Positions 14,530 through 18,347 of a DNA stretch of 64,000 nucleotides are shown here, piece after piece. Source of the stretch: an uncultured bacterium (GTDB lineage: Bacteria; Elusimicrobiota; Elusimicrobia; Elusimicrobiales; Elusimicrobiaceae); NCBI GenBank assembly GCA_949291365.1, contig CASEVJ010000005.1:1-64000 (forward strand). The letters run 5' to 3'. A program made the position numbers and the translations under genes. The notes below the pieces were generated by a model. It was not told where the DNA came from. It saw nothing but the letters and a program-made list of their open reading frames with translations, and made no database searches. Numbering within the stretch: position 1 is the first letter of the stretch; every line of letters starts with the position of its first letter.

Positions 14530-14922
14530 ATGAATATTTCAGAAGTAAGCAAAAAATACGGTATTTCCATAGATACCCTGCGCTATTATGAAAAAGAAGG
14601 GTTTATCCCCCCTGTGCGCCGCAGTGAAAGCGGCCTGCGTGATTACAGCGAGCAGGACTGCGGCTGGGTGGAGTTTATTAAATGCATGCGCGGGGCGGGG
14701 CTTTCCATAGATACGCTGCGTCAATATATTTTGCTTTACGGCAAGGGCAACCGCACATTGCAGAAGCGTAAAAATTTGCTTATTGCCGAGCGCGACAAAC
14801 TGCAAGCGCGCATAACGCAAATGCAGCAGACGCTGCAGCGGTTGGATTATAAAATAGAAAGTTATGAAGAGCGCATTGTTGCGTGTGAAAAAGAATTGTT
14901 ACAAAAGAGGAAAACGAAATGA
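14530..14922 (+). CDS. MerR family transcriptional regulator
   Basis: 130 residues. The N-terminal winged helix has the MerR signature (SKKYGISIDTLRYYEKEG, about residues 7-24), followed by a long coiled-coil dimerisation helix (80-125). There is no C-terminal ligand domain. It resembles the short MerR proteins that respond to electrophiles or redox stress, such as the NmlR/AdhR group; two cysteines are present (near 45 and 52), with another near the end. SD GGAGAGG. Its stop overlaps the start of the next gene (ATGA), so it is the first gene of the redox operon. Confidence 0.92.
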   Translation: MNISEVSKKYGISIDTLRYYEKEGFIPPVRRSESGLRDYSEQDCGWVEFIKCMRGAGLSIDTLRQYILLYGKGNRTLQKRKNLLIAERDKLQARITQMQQTLQRLDYKIESYEERIVACEKELLQKRKTK

Positions 14923-15458
14923 GCAAAAAGGTATTAATTGTATCTGCCAGCCCGCGCAAGGGCGGCAATTCTGATGTTTTGTGCGACCGTTTTCTGGCAG
15001 GGGCTTTGGAGGCGGGCCACCAGGCGGAAAAAATATTCCTGCGCGATTATAAAATTAATTACTGCATGGGCTGCGGTCTGTGCAACAGCAGCCACAAATG
15101 CCTGCAAAATGACGATATGCCCCCCCTGCTTGATAAAATGGTGGAGGCCGACGTCATCGTTTTCGCTACGCCCGTATATTTTTATTCCTGCAATGCGCAG
15201 CTGAAAACATTTATTGACCGCTGTCTGCCCAGATATACGGAGATAAGCCACAAAGATTTCTATTATATCCTTTCCGCCGCAGATACGGACAAACGAATGC
15301 TGCGCCGCACACTGGAAACCTTGCGCGGCTTTAGCGAAGACTGCCTTGACGGCACCCGCGAAAAAGCCGTCATTTACGGCACCGGCGCCTGGCATACGGG
15401 AGATGTAAAGAAACTGCCCGTCTATCAAGAGGCCTACGAAGCGGGAAAAAACTGCTAA
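14919..15458 (+). CDS. Flavodoxin-fold NAD(P)H-dependent FMN reductase
   Basis: 179 residues. SASPRKGGNSD (9-19) is the FMN-phosphate loop of the NADPH-dependent FMN reductase / iron-sulfur flavoprotein group. A Cys cluster follows (C50, C53, C57 and C63), as in iron-sulfur flavoproteins, and the PVYFYS segment packs on the flavin. Cytoplasmic: no signal. It overlaps merR by 4 nt and is the first enzyme of the operon. Whether it binds an Fe-S cluster cannot be decided without alignment. Confidence 0.85.
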   Translation: MSKKVLIVSASPRKGGNSDVLCDRFLAGALEAGHQAEKIFLRDYKINYCMGCGLCNSSHKCLQNDDMPPLLDKMVEADVIVFATPVYFYSCNAQLKTFIDRCLPRYTEISHKDFYYILSAADTDKRMLRRTLETLRGFSEDCLDGTREKAVIYGTGAWHTGDVKKLPVYQEAYEAGKNC

Positions 15459-15554
15459 CCCCCTCTTAACGGCTGTTGTATTTTGGCGCTCTGTTTGCAG
15501 AGCGCGGGAGGGTTTTGTGCCAAATTGTCCCGTAATTATAGGAGCATAATATAG

Positions 15555-16058
15555 ATGAAAAGAAAAATACTTACAAAACTGGTCTTATGTATGGCGCTGT
15601 GGACTGTAGCTGGCTGCGCCAGTGTAAACTATACAGAAGAAAAAGAGGTTAAAAAAATGAATAAATCCCCCATAGATACCGTCTTTGCACAAGGAGAGCT
15701 TAATCCGTACGGAAAATTTTTCACGGGTACGACGTATTTGACCATGTTAAGCCCGGGCGGGGACGAATTTAACGCTCCCATAGGCAATGTAACTTTTGAA
15801 CCGGGCGCGCGGACAAACTGGCATAAACACGCCGGCGGGCAAATCCTGCTGGTGCTCAACGGAGAAGGACGCTATCAAGAAAGAGGCAAAGCTATTCAGA
15901 TTTTGCACAAAGGCGATGTGGTGCGTATTGCACCCGATGTGGAGCATTGGCACGGGGCTGCGCCGCAGAGCTGGTTTGTGCATATTTCACTGGAGACCAA
16001 CCCGCAGCGGGGGGCTTCCACCTGGCTGGAGCCCGTGGCTGATAGCGATTACCGCTAA
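15555..16058 (+). CDS. Cupin-domain lipoprotein with an internal start
   Basis: 167 residues. A lipoprotein signal ends in VAGC (Cys21). The cupin domain carries the metal-binding pattern WHKHAGGQ, then E...G and HWHG, as in carboxymuconolactone-associated cupins often found with flavodoxins and reductases. A second in-frame ATG at 15657 (residue 35) has its own GAGG 8 nt upstream and lies just before the conserved region, so a cytoplasmic 133-residue form is also possible. SD AGGAG lies somewhat far from the first ATG. Metal and substrate unknown. Confidence 0.85.
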   Translation: MKRKILTKLVLCMALWTVAGCASVNYTEEKEVKKMNKSPIDTVFAQGELNPYGKFFTGTTYLTMLSPGGDEFNAPIGNVTFEPGARTNWHKHAGGQILLVLNGEGRYQERGKAIQILHKGDVVRIAPDVEHWHGAAPQSWFVHISLETNPQRGASTWLEPVADSDYR

Positions 16059-16112
16059 CGCGCCTTTGGCCCCGGTTGCTGCGGGGCAGAAAGCAGGTAT
16101 ATGGAGAGAAAC

Positions 16113-16736
16113 ATGAACTATAAAAATCTATTATTAGCGGCCGTTGGATTGTGCGGGATAGCGGCTTGTTCCCCGGCGCCGCAGGCGGAGTCAAACGCTT
16201 CCGCCTCGCAGCCCAATCCCGCTCCGTCCGCCGTCCGCCAGCTGGAGGAAGAACCTATGCAGAGTAAAATATTGGTGGCCTACTTTTCTCATTCCGGCAA
16301 TACGGCCGCCGTTGCCCGCCAAATTGCGGACAAAACAGACGCCGTGTTATATGAAATCCGTCCCCAAACGGCTTATCCCAATGAATACAGCCAACTGCTT
16401 GATCAGGCCAAAGAAGAAATCCGCTCCGGCTTTCTTCCCCCGTTGCAGCAGCCGTTGCCGGACATATCTAGTTATGATATCGTGTTTATTGGCTCCCCCA
16501 ATTGGTGGGGCACCTATGCTCCGGCAGCAGGAGCGTTTTTGGCACAATATGACTGGAGCGGCAAGACCGTGGTACCCTTTTTTACCCATGGAGGAGGCGG
16601 CATGCAAAATTGCAGCCGCGATATACAAAAACACTTAACCCAAGCCAATATAGGGCCGGCGGCGGCTTTCCGCGGGCGCTCCGGCGGGGCGGATGAAAAA
16701 GAGCTGGAAAAGTGGCTTACAAAAATAGGATTATAA
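16113..16736 (+). CDS. Lipoprotein flavodoxin with an internal start
   Basis: 207 residues. The ATG at 16113 is chosen over 16101 because GGAGAG is placed just before it. A lipoprotein signal (IAAC, Cys19) is followed by a 30-residue Ser/Pro/Ala linker and then a flavodoxin domain with the phosphate loop FSHSGNTAAV and the aromatic segment PNWWGTY. A second ATG at 16257 (residue 49) starts exactly at the flavodoxin domain with GGAGG 8 nt upstream, so a cytosolic form is plausible. The gene lies 54 nt after the cupin gene and immediately before the DUF4405 gene. Confidence 0.87.
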   Translation: MNYKNLLLAAVGLCGIAACSPAPQAESNASASQPNPAPSAVRQLEEEPMQSKILVAYFSHSGNTAAVARQIADKTDAVLYEIRPQTAYPNEYSQLLDQAKEEIRSGFLPPLQQPLPDISSYDIVFIGSPNWWGTYAPAAGAFLAQYDWSGKTVVPFFTHGGGGMQNCSRDIQKHLTQANIGPAAAFRGRSGGADEKELEKWLTKIGL

Positions 16737-16737
16737 T

Positions 16738-17379
16738 ATGCGCAATGGGCAACGTTTGGTGAAAATAACGACCGATGCGGTCATTCTGGGGCTGTTAATT
16801 ACGCTGTTGGCTTTCCCGTGGACAGGACACCGGACGCATGCCTGGGCGGCATACGGCTGGGCCTCGGCTGTATTGCTGCATGGGATATGGAACAGAAAAT
16901 GGTACGCCGCACTCTGGCGCGGAGCGTATGATTGGCGGCGTATGATTGGCACCTTGCTGGCGGTATTATTGTGGCTGGCGGCGCTGGGGGCGGTGCTTTC
17001 CGGCGTATGTTTGGCGCATTTTCGCCAGGAGCTGGGGCATGCTTTGTGGTGGCGGCAGCTGCACATTGGGTGCGCCTATTGGCTGTTGGTGCTGTGCGGG
17101 CTGCATTTTGGCCTGCATATAGAGGCATTGGCGGGCCCTTTACGCCAAAAAATGTGTTTTATTAAAATAAGGAAAGTTCTTCCCTGGCTGGGTGCTGTGC
17201 TGGCCGCAGCCGGGCTGTGGGCCGGCTGGCGTTTAGCCGTAGGGCCGGCGCTGTTGTTTGGCTCTTCTTTTGTCCCGAACGGAGGGAGCTGGTATTGTTT
17301 CGCCGCGCAGGCAGTGGCGGTGTTTTGGCTGTGTGCATTTGCGGCCTATGTTTTTACAAGGAGAAAAATATGCAAATAA
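16738..17379 (+). CDS. DUF4405 membrane protein, probable b-type cytochrome
   Basis: 213 residues with about six hydrophobic helices. The HGIWNRKWY segment and the later pair of histidines in LHIGCAYW and HFGLHIE match the DUF4405 pattern, which resembles membrane b-type cytochromes with His haem ligands. It begins 1 nt after the flavodoxin stop and overlaps the next gene. Such a protein could pass electrons across the membrane to the exported flavodoxin and DUF362 protein; this is inferred from context. Confidence 0.78.
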   Translation: MRNGQRLVKITTDAVILGLLITLLAFPWTGHRTHAWAAYGWASAVLLHGIWNRKWYAALWRGAYDWRRMIGTLLAVLLWLAALGAVLSGVCLAHFRQELGHALWWRQLHIGCAYWLLVLCGLHFGLHIEALAGPLRQKMCFIKIRKVLPWLGAVLAAAGLWAGWRLAVGPALLFGSSFVPNGGSWYCFAAQAVAVFWLCAFAAYVFTRRKICK

Positions 17380-18347
17380 GAAAACATGGATACGGGATTT
17401 TGGGTTTAGCCGGCGTGTGCGCCTGTTTGTGCGCGTGCGCGGCCGAAACGGAGCACGGGGCGGCTCCGGTGCAGCCGGCCAAAGCGGTGGTGTATTTTAC
17501 GCGGGATTTGTCGGCGGAAGGATTGCAAAAAGTTTACAATAAAATCAACCAAAACTTGACCGGCAAGGTGGCTATTAAACTGCACACCGGGGAGCCGCAC
17601 GGCCCCAATATTATTCCGCGGGAGTGGGTCAAAGCCCTGCAGGCCCAAATCCCCAACAGCAATATTGTGGAAACCAATGTGCTCTACGAGAGCCCCCGCC
17701 AAACTACCGAGGGGCACCGGGAAACTTTAAAAATTAACGGCTGGGATTTCTGCCCGGTGGATATTATGGACGAGGACGGCGCCATCATGCTGCCCATTAA
17801 AGGCGGTAAACACTTTAAAGAAATGTCCATGGGCAAGAATATTTTAAATTACGATTCTATGCTGGTGCTAACCCATTTTAAAGGGCATACCATGGGCGGA
17901 TACGGCGGTTCTTTAAAGAATATTGCTATCGGCTGTGCAGACGGCAAAGTGGGCAAGGCCCTCATTCATGGCAGTGTACCGGAAAACACGTGGGCTACCA
18001 GCGGAGAACGATTTCAGGAAAATATGGTAGAGTCTGCCAAAGCGACGGTAGACCATTTTGCCCCGCATATTGCCTATATTAATGTGCTGCGCAATATGTC
18101 GGTGGACTGCGACTGTGCCGGCACGTCGGCCGCGCCGGTTAAGGCCGGGGATATCGGCATTTTGGCCTCTACGGATGTGGCAGCGGTAGACCAGGCCTCC
18201 ATTGACATGGTGTGGGCCTTGCCGGAAGAAGAAGGCCATGACCTTAAAGAGCGTATCCTTTCGCGTAAGGGGCTGCGCCAGCTCTCTTATATGAAAGAAC
18301 TGGGCATGGGAGACGGCCAGTACGAACTAGTGGATTTGGACAAGTAG
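17370..18347 (+). CDS. DUF362-domain lipoprotein
   Basis: 325 residues. The ATG at 17370 is chosen for its SD AAGGAG and the following lipoprotein signal (Cys-rich end, LCAC). The mature part fits DUF362 (uncharacterised Fe-S centre proteins): VAIKLHTGEP near the start, a VLTHFKGHTMGGYGG segment, a DCDCAG motif and LASTDVAAVDQAS. A classical ferredoxin CxxCxxC motif is absent, so cluster binding is uncertain. It overlaps the DUF4405 gene by 10 nt and ends the operon before a strong terminator. Confidence 0.85.
   Translation: MQIRKHGYGILGLAGVCACLCACAAETEHGAAPVQPAKAVVYFTRDLSAEGLQKVYNKINQNLTGKVAIKLHTGEPHGPNIIPREWVKALQAQIPNSNIVETNVLYESPRQTTEGHRETLKINGWDFCPVDIMDEDGAIMLPIKGGKHFKEMSMGKNILNYDSMLVLTHFKGHTMGGYGGSLKNIAIGCADGKVGKALIHGSVPENTWATSGERFQENMVESAKATVDHFAPHIAYINVLRNMSVDCDCAGTSAAPVKAGDIGILASTDVAAVDQASIDMVWALPEEEGHDLKERILSRKGLRQLSYMKELGMGDGQYELVDLDK

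Follow-up and report, generated by a model that had tools for sequence, protein, structure and literature searches.

An inner start maintained by selection probably lets one cupin gene of Elusimicrobiales encode both exported and cytosolic forms

A cupin gene in an Elusimicrobiales genome is likely to yield two versions of a small enzyme-like protein from one mRNA, an exported form and a cytosolic form initiated at an inner start under selection; the adjacent flavodoxin gene probably does likewise in this clade, most of the genus being without its inner start. The genes lie in a stretch of 64,000 nucleotides (the window) from a 1.39 Mb genome, the close relatives of which are Elusimicrobiales, Candidatus Avelusimicrobium. 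In both genes, a Shine-Dalgarno (SD) sequence and an in-frame ATG are located downstream of the export signal, at the border between signal or linker and domain. The inner ATG corresponds to Met35 of the cupin and Met49 of the flavodoxin, and 8 nt separate each from its SD (Table 1), exactly, to the base, as described in the initial annotation. Ribosomes initiating at the outer cupin start would produce the exported, membrane-anchored protein, and those loading at the inner SD would produce a signal-less cytosolic form with the entire cupin domain. That the short form is translated, and that the cupin is used in both compartments, we infer from sequence.

The two genes belong to a cluster with the order MerR regulator, FMN reductase-like protein, cupin, flavodoxin, DUF4405-like membrane protein, and DUF362 lipoprotein. 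The regulator scored 141.4 bits against NmlR (NF041849; NCBIfam cut-off, 175 bits) and falls short of membership. The cupin scored 125.2 bits against the (R)-mandelonitrile lyase cupin NF049940 (NCBIfam cut-off, 140 bits) and is a related cupin outside that family. The flavodoxin matched Flavodoxin_4 (PF12682) with 99.9 bits, above the Pfam gathering score of 24 bits. The family names suggest a redox or electrophile response with activity on either side of the membrane, with the MerR and FMN reductase-like proteins in the cytosol and the flavodoxin, cupin, and DUF362 protein exported. The anti-SD CCTCC is present at the 3' end of the full-length 16S in three genus relatives (G065, G030, and G068); the pattern was not found in the window's own assembly.

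Table 1. Features of the cupin-flavodoxin cluster (window coordinates; duplex energies in kcal/mol)
Feature	Position	Strand	Basis
MerR-type regulator	14530..14922	+	best NCBIfam match NmlR, under cut-off
NADPH-dependent FMN reductase-like protein, cytosolic	14919..15458	+	family profile match
Outer SD GGAG of cupin start	15541..15544	+	sequence; duplex -6.5
Cupin ORF, long exported form, 167 aa	15555..16058	+	Cupin_2 match, 44.6 bits
Cupin signal peptide and lipobox VAGC, lipidated Cys21 (15615-15617)	15555..15617	+	sequence
Cupin inner SD GAGG, within codons Lys-Glu-Val	15645..15648	+	duplex -6.5; SD glutamate codon GAG in 29/29
Cupin short form, 133 aa, predicted cytosolic	15657..16058	+	inner ATG in 30/31 orthologs
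Outer SD GGAG of flavodoxin start 16113	16103..16106	+	sequence; duplex -6.4
Flavodoxin ORF, long lipoprotein form, 207 aa (211 aa from upstream ATG 16101)	16113..16736	+	Flavodoxin_4
Flavodoxin signal peptide and lipobox IAAC, lipidated Cys19	16113..16169	+	Cys invariant in 25/25 aligned orthologs
Flavodoxin inner SD GGAGG	16244..16248	+	duplex -9.3
Flavodoxin short form, 159 aa	16257..16736	+	inner ATG in 10/30 orthologs; fold from residue 51
DUF4405-like membrane protein	16738..17379	+	score under Pfam cut-off
DUF362 lipoprotein, negative control without inner start	17370..18347	+	family profile match

Because the structure model of the cupin is confident only from about residue 78, the domain border was taken from solved homologs, among which 2f4p aligns from residue 39. 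The TM1010/cupin 2 conserved barrel proteins (2f4p, 4bif, 4uxa, and 8oz8, the last three of which we take to be hydroxynitrile-lyase-type cupins) share the same cupin domain with E-values down to 2.3e-36; their matches begin at residue ≥39, leaving the signal and linker outside. For the flavodoxin, the solved homologs 3klb, 4j8p, and 4ici align from residues 45-51, and the pLDDT of the model rises from ~50 to 95 at residue 51. Around the cupin inner start, a segment of 50 nt is almost unfolded (-1.7 versus -10.5 kcal/mol), although A-rich linkers by themselves lower structure.

The chance level was assessed in 424 kb of the same genome (the window and 18 stretches, 411 called genes), with a site defined as an in-frame ATG located no more than 45 codons past the hydrophobic core and preceded by an SD duplex of ≤-5.8 kcal/mol. 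Seven of the 68 genes with a signal or anchor contained such a site: the cupin, the flavodoxin, one wrong start call (DUF362), and four others, that is, 4 of the remaining 65 (~6%). Such an SD also preceded 11 of the 204 early in-frame ATGs in genes for cytosolic proteins. The two adjacent sites are suggestive, indicative rather than decisive, and the window alone is weak evidence. The earlier contention that the same layout in two neighbors is unlikely to be a coincidence has weak backing from this genome, in which a single instance is a ~6% event; the case becomes strong through conservation, and for the cupin.

Cupin matches were detected in 40 of 66 genomes (the assemblies are MAGs), and all 31 places scoring ≥238 bits were analyzed with their neighborhoods, the window being used for G000. 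Weaker matches comprised a paralog, CMD-cupin fusions, and fragments, among which L122 and seven CMD-cupin loci of the genus were examined; a further CMD-cupin locus (G052) and a cupin (G048, L117), from another family, were added. Signal peptides were called by a hydrophobicity rule and reading by eye; by eye, 29 of the 31 close orthologs carry an in-frame signal or anchor. All but one retain the inner ATG, in each case with an SD duplex of ≤-5.8, and once the two without an in-frame signal are set aside, SD and ATG are both present in 28 of the 29 signal-bearing orthologs. The linker and lipobox are not conserved: the lipobox Cys is found here, but most orthologs have a Cys-less signal or a membrane anchor, so that the lipoprotein signal described earlier, seen in both window genes, is not general.

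Among these 31 cupins, 28 have both elements, one has the signal only, and two have the inner start only. In the G016 gene, the inner ATG is changed to ATA and the signal is retained, and for this reason the short form is dispensable in that genome. The G075 gene (L149:3966-4367) lacks the signal and keeps the inner SD and ATG; it sits away from the MerR cluster, flanked by YbaK-like and transketolase-like genes (named by eye), with imperfect repeats upstream. The G079 gene keeps the inner SD and ATG as well, and its signal-like stretch lies in another frame that ends at a TAA between the two; this frame change could be an assembly error. All eight exported CMD-cupin fusions (L113-L116 and L118-L121) have an SD and ATG between the signal and the CMD domain, with differing linkers, and the related exported cupin paralog (L122/L023) lacks the inner Met. 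In G065, a fragment corresponding to the first 21 residues of the cupin domain (G065:C4:59728-59790; 86% identical, one stop) precedes the intact gene by ~1 kb.

Codon choice points to purifying selection on the cupin inner start. We kept the linker amino acids fixed and redrew the codons by genome usage, after removing two duplicates from the 30 sequences: all 28 distinct contexts reach -5.8, whereas 6.7 would be expected, and the highest count in 4,000 synonymous randomizations was 16. The SD glutamate is invariably encoded by GAG (G075 and G079, in which the SD is built otherwise, are outside this test), whereas other glutamates in the same linkers use GAG in 1 of 13 cases and GAA in 12, and GAG accounts for 28% of Glu codons; the Fisher exact test on these linker codons ignores phylogeny. 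The codon before the SD glutamate varies with the codon that comes next. Where the latter does not begin with G (n = 15), the former is AAG in 9 sequences and CAG in 6; where it does (n = 14), AAA occurs in 12, with one AAG and one CAG, such that lysine is AAG in 9 of 9 cases in the first set and AAA in 12 of 13 in the second. The neighboring codon compensates so that AGGAG or GAGG always stays. On the tree, the three inner ATG columns show 0, 0, and 1 changes, compared with 8, 8, and 10 for the three preceding bases; by parsimony, four conserved Glu columns in the cupin domain show 8, 6, 1, and 2.

An alternative that we regard as unlikely, at least as a full account, is that genes for cytosolic proteins acquired an export signal recently, so that their former start signals have yet to decay. 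Origin by addition fits several observations: the signal-less relatives G075 and G048 begin at the same Met as the inner start (the comparison proposed in the initial annotation bears this out, and G075 keeps the SD), solved homologs align from the domain onward, export modules vary between groups, and the absence of the inner start from 20 of the 30 flavodoxins resembles decay. However, when neutral decay was simulated as F81 drift along the cupin tree at the codon-alignment rate, SD and ATG survived in a mean of 5.0 of 29 tips, and none of 300 runs reached 28. The same held at half the rate (0/300), with 3 of 300 runs at a quarter and 75 of 300 at a tenth of it, rates that are implausible because changes in the linker are roughly as frequent as those at third codon positions. 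The compensating codon changes, moreover, require selection, so that for the cupin a mere relic is largely refuted. What survives of the earlier suggestion of a recent export gain is the addition itself: most likely, an export module became attached in frame ahead of the intact ribosome-binding site of a cytosolic gene, after which selection would have kept the inner cupin site, as the codon and decay tests support. Related sequences are non-independent; the tree-based change counts, the decay simulation, and the repeat of the pattern in a second group address kinship in part.

That second group emerged from a contig scan beyond the genus, in which 80 of 552 confirmed stretches were kept; counts on other phyla refer to these 80, and the non-Elusimicrobial cupin loci among them are mainly from gut Alphaproteobacteria. 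In alphaproteobacterial and unnamed proteobacterial loci, the ATG is present in 37 of 38 (the exception is L212), and removal of eight duplicates leaves 29 distinct contexts, 24 of which pass -5.75 where 6.1 would be expected (at most 14 in 2,000 randomizations); the other five (L156, L169, L170, L176, and L178) have a weak inner SD (-4.9 to -0.2). The alphaproteobacterial signal typically ends with Gly-Ala-Gln-Glu, Glu-Ala-Gln-Glu, or similar straight before the Met, and the SD is formed by codons like GGA-GC. or GAG-GC. in the Gly-Ala or Glu-Ala of the cleavage site. The mature long and short products of this type may be just a few residues apart. Four alphaproteobacterial or proteobacterial loci (L146, L147, L148, and L151) lack a signal of their own. 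In these, the frame of an upstream membrane protein continues into the cupin over a strong SD and ATG, fusing the cupin to the C-terminus of a polytopic, presumably metallophosphoesterase-like, protein (in L146:1949-3475, a single 509-aa frame), and the junction retains AAGGAGGAGAAT-ATG or a variant. A similar phosphoesterase-like tail in L188:1-1479 continues in frame into a DUF362 domain via a poly-Glu stretch (gaggaggaggaagaagaggaaATG). The inner SD and ATG are also found in three of four Gastranaerophilales loci and in one Rickettsiales locus. Most betaproteobacterial and gammaproteobacterial relatives lack the inner Met: L189, from the cultured Succinatimonas hippei, is the one locus with an inner SD and ATG in a set that also includes L177, L201, L213, and L217, and a contig end truncates L210. 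We would give even odds to the broader reading that the cupin carries its ribosome-binding site and start along as one unit among gut bacteria from several phyla, with unrelated export modules joined upstream and translated through, dual production being old, selected, and independent of the module. These modules would include lipoprotein or anchor signals, cleavable Sec signals, and the membrane phosphoesterase, and the linker or the signal-peptidase site would conceal the SD.

Alternatively, the SD-like sequence could make elongating ribosomes stall during delivery of the signal to the membrane, in which case the ATG would be incidental. The cupin inner SD is located at about codon 30, and in the consulted part of a study on Escherichia coli (PMC4359368), inner-membrane proteins more often show SD-like pauses within codons 16-60 (69%) than cytosolic proteins do (50%), but periplasmic proteins are lower (41%). 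Pausing would not account for an ATG that is conserved as well as the SD, for signal-less and frame-shifted genes that keep both, or for the other signal families of the neighborhoods, which mostly lack the site, and we consider it quite improbable. Least probable is chance combined with composition, in which Lys/Glu/Gln-rich linkers easily give AGGAG and a Met follows by accident: the linkers are indeed rich in these residues and some 6% of other signal genes have a site, but synonymous randomization by genome codon usage, the GAG/GAA contrast within linkers, and the repetition of the pattern in Alphaproteobacteria with other peptides refute it for the cupin, and only single flavodoxin sites may possibly have arisen in this way.

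The preferred reading, initiation at two starts of one cupin mRNA, has parallels. In E. coli SpeA, according to PMC9825163 and PMC13245402, an in-frame inner start removes a 26-aa N-terminus with the secretion signal and gives a cytoplasmic isoform, as the cupin inner start would do. SpeA was shown by profiling, whereas the evidence for the cupin is evolutionary, from several phyla and with a variable export module. Salmonella OmpX, PagC, and YfhG have short N-terminal proteoforms without the signal peptide or lipoprotein anchor, like the predicted cupin short form; these are different families, and the sections consulted of that report (PMC11005335) contain no comparable codon-level selection test. 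Enterobacterales orthologs differ in having a signal peptide, through gain or loss (PMC5952966, in part), whereas the cupin appears to keep both states in one gene. Titles and abstract beginnings in the literature yielded no published account of the cupin inner start. In bacteria, dual localization through internal initiation has been documented in individual profiled examples, for which the part played by selection is usually hard to judge; for the cupin, codon usage in two groups of bacteria makes selection directly readable, and naturally occurring losses of one form or the other can serve as controls. Gene callers that choose one start would place such proteins wholly in one compartment.

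The flavodoxin appears to present the reverse of the cupin, export being constant and the inner start variable. The lipobox Cys is invariant across the genus in all sequences that could be aligned (25 of 30), and 10 of 30 orthologs retain the inner ATG, which makes the inner start lineage-limited. These ATGs occur in eight distinct contexts, all with an SD, against 2.3 expected (single contexts, P = 0.02-0.22 each). The SD and ATG are kept in all six genomes nearest to the window, the linkers of which have diverged (combined synonymous p = 0.0014), and are missing in most others. In the clade of the window, the flavodoxin thus probably uses both starts too, most of the genus being without the inner one. 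Loss of inner sites under retained signals, part of what the initial annotation had named as evidence against its reading, is seen for the flavodoxin in the genus at large and not in this clade; conservation of the inner SD is borne out for the cupin. Dual localization, one of the two readings proposed there for both genes, is well supported for the cupin, the inner SD and ATG of which are under selection in two groups of bacteria; for the flavodoxin, it is probable in the clade of the window.

Inner sites are not a general trait of exported proteins in the genus. Across 11 signal- or anchor-bearing ortholog groups from 41 neighborhoods, SD and ATG were found in 27 of 29 cupins (rather than 28, as the strict -5.8 cut-off may have dropped one borderline site), 6 of 6 CMD-cupins, 14 of 51 flavodoxins (the whole superfamily, including paralogs), and 4 of 18 members of an exported CMD-like group (named by eye); the other seven groups, with 17, 13, 8, 7, 7, 6, and 6 members, had none or one. 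The DUF362 lipoprotein of the cluster was considered for the same two-start layout and rejected, with an ATG at the domain border in 0 of 13 orthologs. Elsewhere in the genome of the window, a Lactamase_B_3 lipoprotein (L134:14711-15424, minus strand) has a strong SD and ATG just past the lipobox Cys and is a third candidate.
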